This document shows positions 7,756 through 42,447 of a stretch of 64,000 bases of DNA, one piece after another. Numbering within the stretch: the first letter of the stretch is position 1; each line of letters begins with the position of its first letter. This DNA is from Litorimonas cladophorae (lineage in GTDB: Bacteria; Pseudomonadota; Alphaproteobacteria; Caulobacterales; Maricaulaceae), in NCBI RefSeq assembly GCF_014652455.1, contig NZ_BMYV01000002.1:310001-374000 (forward strand), written 5' to 3'. Under the pieces are notes generated by a model that saw nothing but the letters and a program-made list of their open reading frames with translations, was not told where the DNA came from and made no database searches. The position numbers and the translations under genes are program-made.

Positions 7756-8085
7756 ATTATAAGCGGGACAGTCCGCAGGATCGGAACTCACGATGGAACA
7801 CCGAAATTAAAATTATTGTTTTACGCAAGTGAAAATCCTGCGGCAGCGGTTTTTGATCAAGCGGCCCGTTTGTCCTACCAGTTAGGGCAACTCTGGCCCC
7901 AGGCATCGGCTCTCACTTCAAAAGGTCCGGCACACTCCACGCTCTCACACGCGGACGCTCAACCCCACCGTCTCTCGATACGGCAGGTGAGCTCCTACCT
8001 GTCCCGTGTCCGAAAGAACCCGTGTAGTATGTCACAGGTTTTGAAAGCGGGGATCATTCTCTCAAACCAAGTCATAACAGACTGA
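7756..8085 (+). repeat. Copy A of the three-copy dispersed family (start-less reading frame)
   Basis: This lies in the 504-bp gap 7680-8183. From AGCGGGACAGTCCGC to GGGGATCATTCTCT it aligns with the minus-strand ORF at 54148-54534 and more weakly with 31391-31625. The frame matching 54148-54534 is open from 7744 to the TGA at 8083 but has no ATG or GTG; TTG 7816 would give an 89-residue protein. Shared residues include SGTVR...DG.P, GPA...HAD, SYLS.VRKN.C and GIIL. Many shared codons differ only at the third base (GGT/GGC, CCG/CCC, GAC/GAT, GTC/GTT, ATC/ATT), which suggests coding ancestry. I regard it as a 5'-truncated or decaying copy. Nothing else is recognised in this gap. Confidence 0.6.
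8017..8040 (+). other. Small hairpin within copy A, partly preserved in copy C
   Basis: AACCCGTG and CACAGGTT can pair with one mismatch. In the copy on the minus strand near 54190 the same place reads AACCTGTG and CACGGGATT, where pairing is kept through a G-U pair and a one-base bulge. This may be a structured element, or it may be a by-product of coding conservation. Confidence 0.3.
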
Positions 8086-8183
8086 TGCCAATAGAAAAAA
8101 TATTTACGTCGTCAGGATTGTTTTGGGACGATTAAGGCGCCAGTGCCAATTCCTCCATAAACCTCGACCGATAGCCCGACGGC

Positions 8184-9200
8184 CTATACGCCGCCGAAAT
8201 AGGGCACCACGCGTTGGATGACCCAAAACATTGCGACGCTGGCGATGCCATAACTCAGCATCCATTCCGCGCTCCTGCGCCAATAACGTCCCATTTTCGA
8301 AAGACCCCAAAGGGTCACAAGAGCGGCGAAAATGACTGCGAATTGTCCCAACTCAACACCGATGTTAAATAAGAATAGGGCGAGAAGTTCAGTGCCTTCG
8401 GGCAAGCCGATCTCGGCCAAAGCTCCCGCAAATCCAAAACCATGAATGAGCCCCACAGCAAACGCAATTATATAGGGGCGGCGGGAGCCCAGGGTCTCTC
8501 GTCCTGCGCGTTTTCGTAAAATCTCAACGCCGAGCAAAACAATGGACCCCGCGATCAAAATTTCGACCGGACGGGAGGGCAAGGAAACGCCGCCCAAAGC
8601 TGTCGCCGCCAGCGTGATAGAGTGAGCCAGAGTAAACGCCGTCGCCACGCCCCAAACTTTGCGTCCGCCAACAAGTAGGGCCAAACCAATAACAAATAAA
8701 AGGTGGTCCCAACCAAAAATAATATGTTCGACCCCAATGCCTAGATAGTCTTTGGCGGGGCTCGCTGCCGGTCCGCTGAGGGGCAGGACAGGAGCTGCGG
8801 GTTTAAGAAGGGCAGAACGTGGCTCTGCCTCTAAATAGCTGATTTGAACAAACACATCGGTCAGCGTGTTTTCCAACCCGGGCAGTGAGATTTCGCCCTG
8901 TTGAAGATCGCAATTGACGGTGAACCGCTCCGCGATGGTGCTGCCTGCACGATCTAGGGTCGGGTCGGTTTGAGTGCAACTTTCTGGGAACTTGGGATCG
9001 ATCCGCAAACGCCGTCCCGAAATAATGGGTTGCTTCCAGATCACTTGGAAACTTTCAGGGCTAACCTCGGTTATCCGCAGAAAAGCGGGCCGGACTTCAT
9101 GAGCGTAGGCAGCGGGGGCTGTCGTCCAAAAGACCCAGCTCCACACCAATCCCGCAATGAATAGGCGGAGGGCAGCGGTTAAGCTCACCTGAGATCTCAT
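8184..9200 (-). CDS. HupE/UreJ_2-family membrane protein
   Basis: The 338-residue protein has a signal peptide ending at AAYAHEVRPA and a periplasmic domain at about 35-145. A C-terminal block of about six TM helices contains the HupE/UreJ hallmarks: GVEHIIFGWDHLLFVIGLALL, FTLAHSITL, GLIHGFGFAGAL and FNIGVELGQ. The His/Asp/Glu-rich TM motifs suggest metal transport (nickel or cobalt in characterised HupE/UreJ proteins). Its start overlaps the stop of the parvulin gene (ATGA), so the two are translationally coupled. The same trio with a DUF3604 protein is found in other marine bacteria to my knowledge, but its pathway is not established. Confidence 0.85.
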   Translation of the reverse strand: MRSQVSLTAALRLFIAGLVWSWVFWTTAPAAYAHEVRPAFLRITEVSPESFQVIWKQPIISGRRLRIDPKFPESCTQTDPTLDRAGSTIAERFTVNCDLQQGEISLPGLENTLTDVFVQISYLEAEPRSALLKPAAPVLPLSGPAASPAKDYLGIGVEHIIFGWDHLLFVIGLALLVGGRKVWGVATAFTLAHSITLAATALGGVSLPSRPVEILIAGSIVLLGVEILRKRAGRETLGSRRPYIIAFAVGLIHGFGFAGALAEIGLPEGTELLALFLFNIGVELGQFAVIFAALVTLWGLSKMGRYWRRSAEWMLSYGIASVAMFWVIQRVVPYFGGV

Positions 9201-31170: not shown

Positions 31171-31390
31171 TTGATCCATCCAGAATCATAGAGAGGATCA
31201 ATAGATAGGGTCTGCCGCGAAGCCGTTGAATTGGCCCTGAGGCCAAATCAACTGAGCGGCGATGCGACCATGTTTAAGACATAGAGCATTGTTCACCGCC
31301 CATCGAGGGGTCAGCTCTGCCGTTGTTACCCGACACGCGGGTTGGGTTGGCGGGCGGCAACCCGCAGATCAAGGGCAAAGCCCTTGTAAA
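31171..31390. other. Structured noncoding stretch after purK
   Basis: No gene is seen. Several hairpins occur: 31225-31236 with 31241-31252 (12 bp, one mismatch), GCGGGTTG (31337-31344) with CAACCCGC (31358-31365), and CAAGGGCAAAGCCCTTG at 31370-31386. None has a clear U-run, so terminator or small RNA function is uncertain. Confidence 0.45.
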
Positions 31391-31625
31391 AAAGGACAGC
31401 CCGCGCAGCGGCAACCGCGATGGCTGCCAGAATTTAATACTAATGTTTACGCAATTGACACTGCGCGGCGGTGTTTCTCGAATAACGGCCTCACTTGATT
31501 GCCCCCGTTCCAGAGGGTCAGGCACGCGCTACTCGGCCCCTCAACACGCGCAGTCACGCACACATCAATAAGCACACCGTCCTCACAACAGCAGGTGACG
31601 TCCTACCTGTCCCAATGTGAGGAAC
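31391..31625 (+). repeat. Copy B of the three-copy dispersed family (frame-disrupted)
   Basis: It aligns with 7756-8085 and with the minus strand of 54148-54534 through a series of shared blocks: GGACAG.CCGC, CGCGAYGG...CCRGAAT, GTTTACGCAA (one T fewer than the GTTTTACGC of the other copies), GCGGTGTTTC, CACACCGTCCT and CCTACCTGTCCCA. The frame equivalent to the intact copy is interrupted by stops and shifts, so it is a relic. It abuts the AT-rich island. Confidence 0.6.
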
Positions 31626-31858
31626 GAGTTTAAACATAGGCGTAAATGGAGGGGCGGGGAGCGTGTTTTTGAAACTGTGGTTTTATGGGAACTACAGATG
31701 TTTTTAAACGAGGAGAGAGTTTTTCATGGTCGAGTTTCAAGGGACCTTATTCTAAATGATACACAAAGTGATCAGTATACGGATAATCTGTAATATCTAC
31801 CTGTGGCTTTACATTTAAAAAAGCTATTAATTTCTAGTTGACTTGCTATGTGGTTCGA
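31626..31858. other. AT-rich leader of the Zn-ribbon/NTase/DUF262 island
   Basis: No gene is seen. Base composition drops sharply here to AT-rich sequence, consistent with the left edge of an acquired segment and the promoter region of the three-gene operon that follows. No direct-repeat attachment site was found by eye. Confidence 0.4.
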
Positions 31859-32044
31859 ATGGCGACGTGGACCAAATCTCAAGTTGAACGAAATTGTATG
31901 GAGTGTGGGGCAACCCATACAGTAACTCAATTTAACCTACCCGTGCGAGAAAGAGGCAGCTTTAACTGTTTGGTCTGTGGAAAGATCGCATTTCGATGGA
32001 ACGGGGGTGTAGACTACTCTGACTGGAAGCTTAGAAGTGAGTGA
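31859..32044 (+). CDS. Small zinc-ribbon protein in the AT-rich island
   Basis: The 61-residue protein has two CxxC pairs (Cys13/Cys16 in NCMECGA and Cys37/Cys40 in NCLVCGK), a typical zinc ribbon, followed by FRWNGGVDYSDWKLRSE. It may bind nucleic acid or protein. ATG 31859 is preferred over an upstream TTG 31838. Its end overlaps the next gene by 8 bp, so co-translation is expected. The family is not recognised. Confidence 0.65.
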   Translation: MATWTKSQVERNCMECGATHTVTQFNLPVRERGSFNCLVCGKIAFRWNGGVDYSDWKLRSE

Positions 32045-32630
32045 GCTGTTAGGTGTCTTCAAAAGAGACCTAAGATCCGAGATGCCTAGTGAAGACATCT
32101 GTGACACACACATTTTTAATTCCAAAGTCTGGTTGTTGGAACAACGTTTTGGAGAACATTGCTTCGACAAATACGACGAACTGAAGAGATTTTTTGGAAG
32201 AAGTTTGAAAACCGACCCCAATGAAATAGCTATTGTTGGAAGTTCAAAAACCGGGTTCTCACTAACGCCTGATAAAAACTATCGTAAGTTCGACAACGAA
32301 AAATCTGATATTGACTTAGTTGTAGTCTCCCAAAAACTATTTGACGTATTTTGGGAAATCTTACTCCAAGACTACCACGCAGAGGGAAAACACGTCAGTA
32401 ATCAGCACATGACCAATGTATTCCGAAAGTTTGTGTCATTCAAACCATTTAATTCAAAGCACCTTTCGAAAGACATAAAAGTTTGGAATGAAGAGCTGGG
32501 TGGAATTCAAAGTGAATTTTTTACTCACTTTTCCATATCAAACAGCGTAAATTATAGAATTTATCAAAGTTGGGCCGCCGTAAAGTTATATCACACCAAG
32601 GGGATAACTGACTTGAGGAAGGACATTTAA
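32037..32630 (+). CDS. Nucleotidyltransferase-fold protein in the AT-rich island
   Basis: The 197-residue protein starts at GTG 32037. It carries a minimal pol-beta nucleotidyltransferase signature: GSSKTG (68-73), then SDIDLVVVS with Asp91 and Asp93 as the metal-binding DxD. The remaining C-terminal part is helical, with YRIYQSWAAVKLYH near 173-186. It might modify a protein or RNA with NMP, act as an antitoxin-like enzyme or make a signal nucleotide. The gene overlaps the zinc-ribbon gene and is one base from the DUF262 gene. The assignment is by motif only. Confidence 0.65.
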   Translation: MSELLGVFKRDLRSEMPSEDICDTHIFNSKVWLLEQRFGEHCFDKYDELKRFFGRSLKTDPNEIAIVGSSKTGFSLTPDKNYRKFDNEKSDIDLVVVSQKLFDVFWEILLQDYHAEGKHVSNQHMTNVFRKFVSFKPFNSKHLSKDIKVWNEELGGIQSEFFTHFSISNSVNYRIYQSWAAVKLYHTKGITDLRKDI

Positions 32631-32631
32631 A

Positions 32632-33687
32632 ATGATTTTAAACAATGAGCTTCAACCGGAACGTATGACTATTTCGGCTATTTCAGCAAAATTTTCTGAT
32701 GGTGAAATTTTCGTTGATGATGATTATCAACGAAGAAGCGTTTGGGTTGAAAAAAATAAAATTCGACTATTGGAAAGTGTGTTGACCGGTTACCCAATGC
32801 CGGAAGTCTACTTTTGGCAAGGTGAGCCGGAACCTACAACCGGAAAAATTACATTGAGCATAGTCGATGGCCAGCAACGTATCAGAGCAATTACTGAGTA
32901 CATTACCAATGAATTCAAGCTAACCAAATCCGCGTTGGACAGGCAAAATCAAAGTGAAGAGTTTGTTGGAAAACTATTTTCTGACTTGAAATCTGAGGAT
33001 AAGAATAAAATATGGAACTACCGCTTAAACGTTAGAGTTATTCCTTACACCGTCACAAGAGACGAAATAATTCGCCTCTTTTTGCGCCTTAATGAGACAG
33101 ATAAGTCTCTGAATCCTCAAGAATTAAGAAACGCAAAATTCAACGGAAAGTTCATTCAAGCTGCAATCGCTGTAGCAGACAATGATTTTTGGAAAAAATG
33201 GTCGGTATTTACTCCCGCAATAATTAGACGAATGACAGACGTAACCATATGCAGTCAATTCTTGGCCTTCTTCAGAGTGGGCCTTCAAGGAGAAATTACC
33301 CAAAAAGCAATCAATGGACTATATGATCAGTTTAATGACAAATATTCGCAAAAGAACTCCGACATTGAAAAATGCAACAATACACTAGAATTTATAGATA
33401 AGATATTTTCTACGAATGATGATATTGTAAAATTTTTTAAATCGCAAGTTCACTTCTATCCGTTGTTCATCGGGTCTTACATATTCTTAGAAAAAAGCAG
33501 ACCTATCGATATAAGTGCTCTAAGTGCAAATTTGGTGAAATTTGCAAAACTTTATAGAGAAAGAGGTTCACTTTCTTCAAACACAATCAATGAGTACTGG
33601 GGTGCGTCTAACGAAGGTACATCCCGAAGGTCGAATAGAGAAATTAGAGTGAATACTATTCTAAATGTTCTTGAAAATGGCACTTAA
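32632..33687 (+). CDS. DUF262 (GmrSD/ParB-like N-terminal domain) protein
   Basis: The 351-residue protein contains the DUF262 core: DDDYQRRSVW at 29-38, LESVLTGYPMPEVYFWQ at 47-63, the DGQQR NTPase motif at 79-83, and LRLNETDKSLNPQELRNA at 151-168. DUF262 proteins (GmrS, SspE, BrxU and others) hydrolyse nucleotides in phage defence. Here no HNH/DUF1524 nuclease domain follows; the C-terminal half is helical and AT-rich in coding (positions 33361-33420 hold 15 G/C in 60). It ends the three-gene operon. The molecular target is unknown. Confidence 0.85.
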   Translation: MILNNELQPERMTISAISAKFSDGEIFVDDDYQRRSVWVEKNKIRLLESVLTGYPMPEVYFWQGEPEPTTGKITLSIVDGQQRIRAITEYITNEFKLTKSALDRQNQSEEFVGKLFSDLKSEDKNKIWNYRLNVRVIPYTVTRDEIIRLFLRLNETDKSLNPQELRNAKFNGKFIQAAIAVADNDFWKKWSVFTPAIIRRMTDVTICSQFLAFFRVGLQGEITQKAINGLYDQFNDKYSQKNSDIEKCNNTLEFIDKIFSTNDDIVKFFKSQVHFYPLFIGSYIFLEKSRPIDISALSANLVKFAKLYRERGSLSSNTINEYWGASNEGTSRRSNREIRVNTILNVLENGT

Positions 33688-33957
33688 TATGCCCCAAGGT
33701 TTGTAGAAACTTTTTAGATTGAAGCTGTTTAGCCCATCGCTGCAAACAGCGCAAAATATGGGGCAGGCCAACAAAAATTTTGCTTACCTTTTTTGTTTTT
33801 ATTAGCCGATGGCCTCGCAGTATTTCAAACTTTGATGTTCGGTAGCCTTCTTTTCCTGATTTCGATGAGTGGCTTTAACCAGCCCAGTGAAATACACTGA
33901 GCTAACGTCTACTTCGGAGGTATTTGTGCAATGTTATAAGAGAATTTCAAGTTCCCC

Positions 33958-34803
33958 CTATCCCCGCGCTAGGCTCCACTTCGCCCAGAGCCAGAAAATC
34001 TTTGGGCCTTCAATTAAATACCGCTTCCATAACCGCTTGGGTTCGCTGGCGAGGCGGTAGAGCCATTCCATTCTGATCTTTTGCATCCATTTCGGCGCGC
34101 GTTTTGTGCGCCCCGAGAGGAAGTCGAGCGACGCCCCCACACAGAGGCCCAGGCCCACGCAATCCCCGCGATCCAAGCAGGCTTTGGCGATCATTTCCTG
34201 TTGCGGGCTACCCACGCAAATAAACACATAGCGCGCAGGATTTGCCGCGATAAATTCGGCTGTTTTGGCGACTTCATCGGGTTTATGGCGCAGGCCAAAG
34301 GGCGGCTCGTAATGATTGATCTTATCAAAACCATAGAGCTTTTTGATCGTGGCAATGATCTCTGCGTCTGCGCCAATGACGGTGATGGTATCGTCGCGCG
34401 TGATAACATTATCAAATAGCTGCTGCGTAAGGTCAGACCCCGGGACAGCTTTGAGGGGAATGCCTGAGAATTTAGCGAGGAGTTCCAAAATCCGCGAGTC
34501 GCAGACGGACAGCCAGCTGGCTTCGTAAAGCGGGTTAAACACCTCGGGCTCTTTGGCGACGCGCACCAGATGGTCGACATTGGGCGTAACGATAAAGCGG
34601 AAGCCGTGATCCATCGTCATCCATTTGGCGCGGGCCAAGGTCTGCATGGGGGTGAGGGGATCAAAGGTCGCGCCGATGAACTCATAACTGCGCATATTCA
34701 CGCGCCAATCGGTTTGTCCGGGGCGGCTGCTCTCGCGGCGATCTTCACCGCGCGGTACCGCCGGTACGATATGTTTGTCGACTTGATTCACTGTTCGGCC
34801 CAT
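33958..34803 (-). CDS. WecG/TagA/CpsF-family glycosyltransferase
   Basis: The 281-residue protein has the GT26 family segments: VTPNVDHLVRVAKEP, CDSRILELLAKFSGIPLKAVPGSDL, VIGADAEII, YEPPFGLRH, YVFICVGSPQQEMIA and GLCVGASLDFLSGRTKRAPKWMQKIRMEWLYRLASEP. These enzymes transfer ManNAc-A- or ManNAc-type sugars onto lipid carriers in exopolysaccharide and surface glycan synthesis. GAGGTGGG lies before ATG 34803, so I choose that start although homologues could begin at 34695. It is divergent from the ABC exporter gene with 75 bp between starts. Confidence 0.88.
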   Translation of the reverse strand: MGRTVNQVDKHIVPAVPRGEDRRESSRPGQTDWRVNMRSYEFIGATFDPLTPMQTLARAKWMTMDHGFRFIVTPNVDHLVRVAKEPEVFNPLYEASWLSVCDSRILELLAKFSGIPLKAVPGSDLTQQLFDNVITRDDTITVIGADAEIIATIKKLYGFDKINHYEPPFGLRHKPDEVAKTAEFIAANPARYVFICVGSPQQEMIAKACLDRGDCVGLGLCVGASLDFLSGRTKRAPKWMQKIRMEWLYRLASEPKRLWKRYLIEGPKIFWLWAKWSLARG

Positions 34804-40254: not shown

Positions 40255-41091
40255 ATGTCTTATACTTGTTTTGATGTCGAAATTGCCGATGGCGTCGCGC
40301 ATGTGAAAATGAACCGCCCAGAAAAACGCAACGCGATGATTGCCGCGTTCTGGGAAGAGCTGCCGCGTATTGTGCGGGATATTGATGAAAATTCGAAAGC
40401 GCGCGTAATTGTACTGTCTTCAACAGGCCCCGTTTTCAGCGCGGGAATCGATGTCGGAATGTTCCAAGATATTGGTGGTGCCAAAGATAAAAATGCGCCG
40501 CAATATGGCGCAAGTTTCTACATTGATGTGAAACGTCTGCAGGCGTCATTGTCGTCGCTTGAAAATTGCCGCATCCCTGTTCTTACGGCGATCCAAGGTG
40601 GCTGTTACGGCGGTGGCGTCGACCTGATCACGGCCTGCGATATGCGCTATGGTACTGCCGATAGCTTCATCACGATTTACGAAATCAATGTGGGCATGAC
40701 GGCTGATGTTGGGACATTCCCTCGCATCCTTAATCACATGCCCGAAGGTATCGTCCGCGAGCTCGCCTATACGGGCCGCAAGATGGGCGCGGAAGAATGT
40801 AAATCGCGGGGGCTGTTTAATGAAGTCTATGCTGATCATGAAACCATGATGAGCGCTGTGATGGACATGGCGCGTGAGATTGCGTCCAAGCCTCCGCTCG
40901 CGGTCTATGGCTGTAAACGCGCGATCACATATTCTCGCGATCACAGTACCGCGGATGCCCTCGACAATATCGCGATTTGGAACATGTCTATGTTGATACC
41001 CTCAGAAATGATGGAAGCCATGATGGCCGGGAAACAAAAACGGGCAGGGAACTTCAAAGACTTGCCGCCCGTCGAAACGAAAAAAGCTTAG
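40255..41091 (+). CDS. Enoyl-CoA hydratase/isomerase, dienoyl-CoA isomerase-like
   Basis: The 278-residue crotonase-fold protein has MNRPEKRNAM, the oxyanion-hole FSAGIDVGMF, QGGCYGGGVDLITACDMRYG and IYEINVGMTADVGTFPRI. The Glu in YEINVG and the Asp in TADVGT fit the delta3,5-delta2,4-dienoyl-CoA isomerase group (ECH1-like), which shifts double bonds during beta-oxidation of unsaturated fatty acids. AGGAGG lies just before the ATG. It is the last gene of the four-gene operon. Confidence 0.9.
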   Translation: MSYTCFDVEIADGVAHVKMNRPEKRNAMIAAFWEELPRIVRDIDENSKARVIVLSSTGPVFSAGIDVGMFQDIGGAKDKNAPQYGASFYIDVKRLQASLSSLENCRIPVLTAIQGGCYGGGVDLITACDMRYGTADSFITIYEINVGMTADVGTFPRILNHMPEGIVRELAYTGRKMGAEECKSRGLFNEVYADHETMMSAVMDMAREIASKPPLAVYGCKRAITYSRDHSTADALDNIAIWNMSMLIPSEMMEAMMAGKQKRAGNFKDLPPVETKKA

Positions 41092-41115
41092 CGATAAATT
41101 GGGTTGTAAAACGGG

Positions 41116-41159
41116 TTAGGCCGAAACGATGTTGTGCCCCACAACATGTCTCGGCCTAA
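41116..41159 (+). terminator. Long two-part hairpin after the isomerase gene
   Basis: TTAGGCCGA (41116-41124) pairs with TCGGCCTAA (41151-41159), and ATGTTGTG (41129-41136) with CACAACAT (41140-41147), with a small internal loop. No T-run follows. It probably ends or processes the operon transcript. Confidence 0.5.
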
Positions 41160-41170
41160 TGTGTCCACAC

Positions 41171-41216
41171 TGGTCATGACGCGTAACTAAACGATGTTTA
41201 ATGCGCGTCATGACCA
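41171..41216. promoter_or_regulatory. 13-bp perfect inverted repeat with self-palindromic arms
   Basis: TGGTCATGACGCG (41171-41183) and CGCGTCATGACCA (41204-41216) are exact reverse complements. Each arm contains the palindrome GTCATGAC. The palindrome centres are 34 bp apart, about three helical turns. A smaller CGTGG/CCACG hairpin follows at 41221-41235. The remaining sequence of this 309-bp gap shows no gene. Confidence 0.5.
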
Positions 41217-41310
41217 ATAACGTGGTTGCCCCACGGGATAATTTCTAACCGAATTTTGACGGCAAGGATTGTCCTTAACGATCATTTCATTTGTCATTTC
41301 TGATAATTTC

Positions 41311-41333
41311 TTTAAGGTTTAGTTCACCTTAAA
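41311..41333 (+). promoter_or_regulatory. Dyad upstream of the AraC-type regulator
   Basis: TTTAAGGT (41311-41318) and ACCTTAAA (41326-41333) are perfect inverted repeats with 7 nt between, ending 67 bp before the regulator's ATG. A candidate operator for autoregulation; inferred. Confidence 0.4.
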
Positions 41334-41400
41334 TGAGGTTACGGATGCAAAACTATAACGCGAAGTTGGTTAAGCAGAGAAGAATTGGGCGCATTTCCTG

Positions 41401-42447
41401 ATGAAAATGACGCTTTCTTACCGCTACCTCAATACGAATCTGGGCTTACTTGCGGGATTCGGGTTTCCACGGGAAAAATCTCTCTCTTTACTCAATATTG
41501 GAGAGGACGCGTTCAAAAACCCTGACGCAAGATTGTCTGTTGAGCCTTTTCTTGAGTTACTCAATTTTGCTTCAGAGGCACTCGGTGATCCTCAGCTTGC
41601 ATTACGCGTCGGGCATAAATTCCGTGTCGCGACATTTGCTGAGACGGGAAGTGTTTATGGATATTGCAAAAATCTTGAAGCCGTTATCAAGATGAACGAC
41701 CAATATCAAAAACTGGCTATCGACGTCGGAAAAGTCACATTTGTTCAAGATGGTCCAGACCAAAACTTCATGGTCTTCTCGCCACATTACGAAGATATGG
41801 AACGATATCGCCGCATTACCGATGTAATCATGGGCGCCTATTTCGCGGCTTATCATTGGCTGTCTTGGGGGTCCGGCGAAGAAATTTTGGGTGTACAGCT
41901 CCCTTATGCCGCGCCAGAAAATTTGAAGACCCATGAGGCGATCTACCAAATTCCTATTCAATTTAACGCAGAACAAACCAGCCTGCAATTTTCAGATATC
42001 GCGATGGCCGATACATTGATGTCTTATAATCCCGAGCGGCTTGTGCGGATCAAGAAGCGATTGGACAATATGATCGGGCAGGGAGCCTGCACCAAGTCCT
42101 TTGACACATCTGTGAATGCGGCGATCCTAGCGGCCATAAAAAACGGTCATATAACCTCTCATGTGGTTGCAGACCGGATGGGATTGACGTGGTCAGCATT
42201 TCGGACGGCGCTGAAACGGTCAGGCCCAGTTTTCCGTGATCGGGTTGACGCGGTACGTCAGGGCCTTTTTCATGAATATTTGGCCGAAGGACAAAGCTTC
42301 TCTCAAATCGCCTTGGGCTTGGCCTATAATGATCAACCCGCCATGAATCGTGCGTTTAGACGTTGGTACGGCATGACCCCAAGCCAATGGAAAGCAGCCC
42401 GTCATTCAGGCGAATCATGCGCGTCGGTCGACACGCAGACTGAATAA
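41401..42447 (+). CDS. AraC-family transcriptional regulator
   Basis: The 348-residue protein has an N-terminal Arabinose_bd-type sensor domain (DPQLALRVGHKFRVATFAETGSVYGY). A C-terminal AraC HTH pair follows at about 255-335: VADRMGLTWSAFRTALKRSG, FSQIALGLAYNDQPAMNRAFRRWYGMTPSQWK. Such proteins often control lipid or amino-acid catabolism. It lies 309 bp after the four-gene operon on the same strand, so control of that operon is plausible. Confidence 0.88.
   Translation: MKMTLSYRYLNTNLGLLAGFGFPREKSLSLLNIGEDAFKNPDARLSVEPFLELLNFASEALGDPQLALRVGHKFRVATFAETGSVYGYCKNLEAVIKMNDQYQKLAIDVGKVTFVQDGPDQNFMVFSPHYEDMERYRRITDVIMGAYFAAYHWLSWGSGEEILGVQLPYAAPENLKTHEAIYQIPIQFNAEQTSLQFSDIAMADTLMSYNPERLVRIKKRLDNMIGQGACTKSFDTSVNAAILAAIKNGHITSHVVADRMGLTWSAFRTALKRSGPVFRDRVDAVRQGLFHEYLAEGQSFSQIALGLAYNDQPAMNRAFRRWYGMTPSQWKAARHSGESCASVDTQTE

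Follow-up and report, generated by a model that had tools for sequence, protein, structure and literature searches.

The question raised by this locus is what a compact, low-GC cluster of three open reading frames (ORFs) is doing in a 64 kb stretch of the Litorimonas cladophorae genome (contig NZ_BMYV01000002.1, positions 310,001 to 374,000; hereafter the window). In order, the ORFs encode a small protein with two CxxC motifs (the ribbon), a nucleotidyltransferase-like protein (NTase) and a DUF262 protein, and an initial annotation took all three as one candidate undescribed defence module. The conserved module consists of two genes, NTase-like and DUF262. We see even chances that it is a horizontally moving defence module of restriction-like design, in which a toxin replaces the nuclease and the outcome is abortive.

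A motif scan of the genome_contigs collection, based on the NTase only, returned 67 loci. In 63 of these a DUF262 gene lies directly downstream on the same strand, overlapping the NTase gene or at most 10 nt from it (ORF starts were set mechanically, and part of the overlaps is overstated); at the window locus the spacing is 1 nt. The pair was also present at all seven loci on contigs labelled as viral by the collection (gaps of 11 nt or less), on a Pseudoalteromonas plasmid (L006), and at each of six loci found by protein or profile searches (L003, L005, L009, L023, L024 and L025, with L003 and L009 identical to L068 and L062 of the motif scan). The NTase gene comes first in every fetched pair and, by record titles, the paired loci cover 11 phyla. 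Distance matrices of the NTase and DUF262 proteins are closely correlated (r = 0.92 for 50 pairs, a value reached in 0 of 2000 permutations), indicating that the two genes are inherited together, and the claim of a widespread, co-inherited module is borne out. Of the four exceptions, L078 runs into a contig end, while L059, L064 and L074 belong to a subgroup of longer NTases, of about 260 amino acids (aa), with other neighbours: a phage tape-measure gene, an unknown gene and a DUF499 ATPase gene, respectively. On an Aliarcobacter plasmid (L007, NTase at 7974-8633), a DUF4365 protein stands in place of DUF262.

Table 1. Coordinates of the ORFs and conserved motifs at the locus (positions in the window).
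Feature	Position	Strand	Description
Ribbon ORF	31859..32044	+	Small, two CxxC (CMEC, CLVC), zinc-ribbon; overlaps the NTase start by 8 nt
NTase-like ORF	32037..32630	+	197 aa, GTG start; proposed toxic effector
First NTase motif, VGSSKTGFS, residues 67-75	32235..32261	+	G68, S69 and S75 invariant (72/72)
SDID (DxD of NTase motif), residues 90-93	32304..32315	+	S90, D91 and D93 invariant (72/72)
DUF262 (GmrSD_N) ORF	32632..33687	+	351 aa, without nuclease domain; proposed DNA-modification sensor and nucleoside triphosphate (NTP)-driven switch
QR motif of DUF262, Q33 R34	32728..32733	+	Invariant (50/50)
DGQQR motif of DUF262, residues 79-83	32866..32880	+	D79, G80, Q82 and R83 invariant (50/50); Q81 at least 90%
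FxxxN motif of DUF262, F150-N154	33079..33093	+	F150 and N154 invariant (50/50)
C-terminal R336, R339 of NTase-linked DUF262 proteins	33637..33648	+	Invariant (50/50)

The product of the middle ORF likely has a nucleotidyltransferase fold, and nucleotidyltransferase catalysis is plausible. Both GS and SDxD are kept in all 72 non-redundant relatives; the GS..S motif was itself the search pattern behind most of these rows, and SDxD lay outside the genome_contigs pattern, yet every row had to pass a profile containing it. L046, where the NTase is split over two frames, and L078 were excluded from the conservation counts. The motif seen in the window protein is present in all of these relatives, as the initial annotation required. 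The NTase alignment comprises the window and 58 of the 63 non-redundant loci (L059, L064, L071, L074 and L089 are omitted). Residues F8 and L12 are common to 61% and 67% of the relatives, favouring the GTG start over the next ATG. At E = 0.05 the match of the window protein to the Pfam family NTP_transf_2 is short of the cut-off; it also matches phrog_32008, a family without known function, at E = 9e-14. When the NTase profile was compared with that of 19 NTP_transf_2 ORFs, both GS and DxD aligned in register (E = 5e-4).

The DUF262 protein is recognised by Pfam GmrSD_N (PF03235) at E = 5e-24. Its best PADLOC match is NsnA (1e-40), presumably the Menshen component of that name (NsnABC); it also matches PD-T4-2_A (1e-17) and a type II restriction-enzyme model (4e-10). 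Pfam gave GmrSD_N and a weak DndB match in this ORF, with none to DUF1524/HNH, and a scan covering the three window ORFs found no nuclease domain. The conserved residues in Table 1 come from an alignment of the window protein with 49 hand-picked ORFs (the truncated L029 and L042 are omitted, as are L056, L070 and others), the profile of which matches structure chains 7p9k (4e-6), which we take to be BrxU, and 9jfl (8e-4). Judged by eye, several DUF262 proteins that have other partners show similarly arginine-rich C-termini. The closest relative of the window protein is that of L027 (43% identity). The DUF262 proteins linked to an NTase form two groups with support in a tree of the family, one of 19 (including the window) and one of 34, which leaves room for a single origin.

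The ORF positions, the 8 nt overlap and the 1 nt gap were confirmed, and the two CxxC, the GS...SDID motif and DGQQR without HNH are all present in the window ORFs. Over positions 31859-33687 the GC content is 0.380, versus 0.515 for the window, and no sampled 1829 nt stretch outside 31171-33960 fell under 0.464 (100 nt steps). A GC content markedly below that of the surroundings, as first described for all three genes, holds for the NTase-like (0.380) and DUF262 (0.366) ORFs but not for the ribbon (0.468). A further low-GC stretch of the window lies at 41000-41999 (0.42-0.46).

The ribbon also fails to travel with the pair. A phmmer search over ORFs of at least 40 aa at the initial set of 99 loci matched only the window's own copies. 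At four other loci (L036, ferredoxin-like; L071; L092; L093) an ORF with two CxxC lies within 700 nt upstream of the NTase, and none of these is a ribbon relative; that of L092 (905-1504, Candidatus Cloacimonadota) is by eye a 199 aa HNH-like protein ending 7 nt before the NTase. Relatives of the ribbon do occur elsewhere, on a Shewanella plasmid, on a Nostoc plasmid and at Alphaproteobacterial loci, and the Shewanella copy (L105:5001-5180, 50% identity) has a DpnII/MboI-type gene on one side and an Argonaute (Piwi) gene on the other. At nine ribbon-bearing loci, profiles found no NTase, DUF262 or C5-methyltransferase nearby (L101-L104 were inspected by eye only). The ribbon was therefore rejected as a third component, and with it the proposal of a three-gene module; sequence comparison suggests that it is probably a passenger.

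A minority of the pairs are linked to a DNA methyltransferase. At 12 of the 67 loci the NTase gene is preceded, at a distance of no more than 13 nt, by a gene for a C5-cytosine methyltransferase; ten of these loci are clostridial or Synergistes, the others from Flammeovirga and Sphingobacterium. In L147, a relative from the family of the window organism (it includes L025), the order is NTase-DUF262-methyltransferase, the last two genes are 2 nt apart, and the surrounding genes resemble housekeeping genes. The L147 methyltransferase shares 49% and 50% identity with its counterparts at L040 and L044 despite the differing gene order. A quick NTase tree, in which some branches (that of L025 among them) are long, requires at least three changes in the linkage. 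At L027 there is a C5-methyltransferase gene some 1.4 kb upstream, together with a gene that by eye is Vsr-like. PADLOC type II methyltransferase models matched 11 of the 136 genes in the near set and none of the 136 in the distant set; each set comes from 140 genes drawn, out of 273 eligible near genes and 149 eligible distant ones, and the near-gene counts include related clostridial loci that are not independent. Near-gene matches could be read for the best 25 of the 125 families, and within that range those to methyltransferases are the ones visible.

These operons bring up true restriction, in which the DUF262 and NTase-like proteins would jointly cleave or nick DNA, with the NTase fold serving in DNA binding or recognition and not as an enzyme. 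In L147 and the clostridial methyltransferase/NTase/DUF262 operons no separate restriction enzyme gene was noticed (partly by eye), and both the type II restriction-enzyme match of the DUF262 protein and the lack of a third conserved acid in the NTase fit such a role. However, the invariance of GS and SDxD is in line with catalysis and the window proteins match no nuclease domain, and we regard joint cutting as improbable.

Among other neighbours, three loci of Candidatus Poribacteria have a TPR-repeat gene no more than 60 nt upstream of the NTase, identified by Pfam in L047 and L067 and by eye in L052. At L005, from the window's own order, a NOV_C (PF13020) gene (372-1424) is immediately upstream of the pair.

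DUF262 genes of plasmids and phages were found beside other toxin-like genes. Twenty regions were hand-picked from 72 plasmid and 26 phage matched records and read for partners, with no nuclease-domain scan of their DUF262 proteins (325 to 646 aa in the 19 measured). A toxin- or effector-like partner was recognised in 13 of the 20, from Pfam, from record annotation or where the resemblance was clear: a protein kinase in three (L010 by Pfam, L014 and L111 by annotation), HEPN in four (two by Pfam, two by annotation), RelA/SpoT (one by Pfam, one fragment by eye), SIR2 (one by annotation, one under the Pfam cut-off) and OLD/DUF3696 (one by Pfam, one by annotation). Both annotated HEPN regions, on Roseomonas and Phaeobacter plasmids, also carry a cytosine methyltransferase. 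A HEPN-like RxxxxH was seen by eye only in three partners, in which Pfam found nothing. At the DUF262-OLD locus of Vibrio phage L9-1, the methyltransferase is 52% identical to that of the L147 operon, pointing to a like modifier and sensor with a different partner. Sulfur genes are annotated near the kinase- or SIR2-partnered DUF262 loci L010, L014, L111 and L113 (Pseudanabaena, Asticcacaulis and Hymenobacter plasmids), namely a cysteine desulfurase (L010) and PAPS reductase (the other three), hinting at a phosphorothioation-type mark.

By analogy with published DUF262 proteins that recognise DNA modification, the DUF262 protein probably senses and the NTase acts. The reverse assignment would make the DUF262 protein the effector, acting as a nuclease or as an NTPase that depletes NTP, with the NTase regulating it, perhaps through addition of adenosine monophosphate (AMP), as MntA does to HEPN toxins. 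The leading position of the NTase gene in every fetched pair would suit a regulator, as would the fact that its motif aligns better with NTP_transf_2 ORFs than with the small set of SMODS ORFs. PMC10853773 and PMC12839542 discuss members of the ParB superfamily as effectors that degrade nucleotides or act as nucleases. Against this, the window DUF262 protein has no HNH domain, and HEPN, RelA/SpoT, SIR2, kinase and OLD-type partners of related DUF262 proteins are more often effectors than regulators; a reversal of roles appears unlikely. With the NTase as effector, a wider generalisation can be offered tentatively, at less than even chances: a modular, nuclease-free class of restriction in which a DUF262 sensor, with or without a C5-methyltransferase of its own, controls suicide effectors that can stand in for one another (NTase, HEPN RNase, RelA/SpoT, SIR2, kinase or OLD ATPase), and in which, here, cytosine methylation would gate a translation-blocking NTase in place of DNA cleavage.

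The NTase is rare and patchily distributed around the window organism, being found in 5 of 200 sampled genomes of the order and, at E ≤ 1e-3, in 4 of 385 sampled genomes of the class (its own genome counted in both). One match in the class, L004, is apparently spurious, since that locus has no NTase ORF. All six other same-genus genomes of the order search lack it. Searches of phages by tblastn with the NTase and the ribbon gave nothing useful, nor did single-protein scans. In same-genus stretches the right flank (from 33959-33976) is kept for at least 2.6 kb in three of four and for about 740 nt in the fourth. The left flank has no match in the four stretches read, except for one 118 nt piece in L160, so no clean empty site is defined and 31171-33960 is best described as a variable junction. 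No plasmid DNA match to 31171-33960 and no tRNA genes in the 64 kb window were found, repeats are only short and two-copy, and a promoter scan gave sites no commoner than in shuffled sequence. The flanking genes are, by eye, purK-like and WecG/TagA-type.

This patchy, mobile occurrence and the seven viral-contig copies would also suit a selfish module that serves addiction or regulation in mobile elements, without a real anti-phage role. Many pairs sit alone amid housekeeping-like genes (by eye), which likewise favours a selfish element and weighs against a defence role. The methyltransferase linkage and the likeness of the DUF262 protein to PADLOC NsnA and PD-T4-2_A argue the other way, making a purely selfish module quite improbable.

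Several other observations weigh against an abortive defence pair with the NTase as its effector. The NTase occurs without DUF262 in L059, L064, L074 and L007. As far as contigs extend, 55 of the 67 loci have no abutting C5-methyltransferase. None was found near the window locus, and the genome's sole PF00145 frame is on another contig (other methyltransferase types were not searched). The neighbourhood check, which upheld the methyltransferase link, does not show a general defence-island enrichment, since the 136 distant genes match 23 PADLOC families. Among the 20 other DUF262 regions, seven are without a partner nameable by profile or annotation, four of these being partnerless or unreadable. 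For the NTase itself, NTP_transf_2 matched at E ≤ 0.01 in only 4 of 59 relatives, and the profile-profile probability with the NTP_transf_2 set was only 30% (two unrelated-protein profiles and 20 column-shuffled profiles, run as controls, gave 0.6% or less). With a small set of four SMODS ORFs (a usable ORF came from 4 of 12 SMODS loci) the probability was 1.3%. A third conserved acidic residue was sought across the 72 rows, and also in 22 rows of clade I, but none was found; residue 136 is K in 20 of the 22 clade-I rows and D in 57% of all rows. A PDB sequence search with the NTase profile matched a designed protein only.

For the abortive pair, we infer the following course, from sensing to phage protection. 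The DUF262 protein, a ParB/Srx-like NTPase, would keep the NTase inactive. In solo copies such as that of the window, the trigger would be foreign modified cytosine in DNA met by the DUF262 protein, and in three-gene copies DNA without the mark set by the linked C5-methyltransferase. The triggered DUF262 protein would hydrolyse NTP and shift conformation, freeing the NTase, which would transfer a nucleotide to a target in the host (tRNA most likely) and halt growth before the phage could spread. If this is true, self/non-self reading of DNA modification couples to growth arrest, besides DNA cutting, and many annotated pairs of 'DUF262 + hypothetical protein' form one testable class. Three-gene copies would then be toxic on loss of the methyltransferase unless the NTase active site is broken, and solo copies would arrest growth when met by phages with modified cytosine.

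DUF262-based defence is known, and the pairing with an NTase-like partner appears to be new. Full-text searches, which leave out most subscription papers, brought up no account of the pair among the listings and passages covered. The claim of an undescribed defence module stands to the extent that no paper naming NTase and DUF262 together was found, but not for the ribbon, and the defence role is one that we infer.

NTase toxins that block translation are known from MenT and AbiE, which resemble the window module in its proposed mode only; its partner is DUF262, and no MenT/AbiEii or AbiEi/MenA family is among the matches of the three ORFs at E ≤ 1. HEPN-MNT toxin-antitoxin systems differ in that their NTase is paired with HEPN, whereas the window partner is DUF262; for likeness to an MNT-type nucleotidyltransferase, the observations are the 30% probability and the 4 of 59 relatives given above. 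In relation to CBASS, there is no SMODS match in the window ORFs, and Cyclase models match 1 of 59 NTase relatives (best 2e-4). Membership of CBASS or of the known NTase toxins was rejected on these results and on the Pfam and profile-profile comparisons above. Type II restriction-modification differs in having a methyltransferase: the window locus has no C5-methyltransferase nearby, whereas 12 of the 67 relatives and L147 have one.

The closest likenesses are on the DUF262 side. According to PMC10952713, GmrSD, BrxU and SspE are DUF262 enzymes in which recognition of DNA modification, coupled to NTP hydrolysis, licenses a fused nuclease, as PMC13251355 also indicates for SspE. GrwAB is likewise such a modification-sensing, NTP-hydrolysing DUF262 system (PMC12137116). 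The window protein shares QR, DGQQR and FxxxN with the GmrSD/BrxU/SspE enzymes and its profile matches 7p9k and 9jfl, but its module lacks DUF1524/HNH and has a separate NTase-like partner. Menshen, Dazbog and PD-T4-2 are given as DUF262 systems without DUF1524, again in PMC10952713. Menshen is matched in the best PADLOC hit and in the absence of DUF1524, and differs in that OLD/DUF3696 ATPase genes (NsnB/NsnC) take the place of the NTase-like gene. The likeness to PD-T4-2 is confined to PD-T4-2_A, the other two window ORFs having no PADLOC match, PD-T4-2_B included, and the partner being NTase-like. HEPN MAE_28990 genes were reported in 2013 to share operons with genes for a ParB nuclease and a DNA methylase (PMC3710099), and on our own reading the ParB there is a DUF262 protein. 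The annotated HEPN regions of the Roseomonas and Phaeobacter plasmids have this layout. These HEPN operons share with the NTase modules a DUF262 gene, a small toxin-like partner and a DNA methyltransferase layout, and differ in having HEPN instead of the NTase-like protein and in gene order, the NTase coming first. The window pair, a DUF262 gene beside a small toxin-like gene, fits the group proposed here of DUF262-controlled effector modules.

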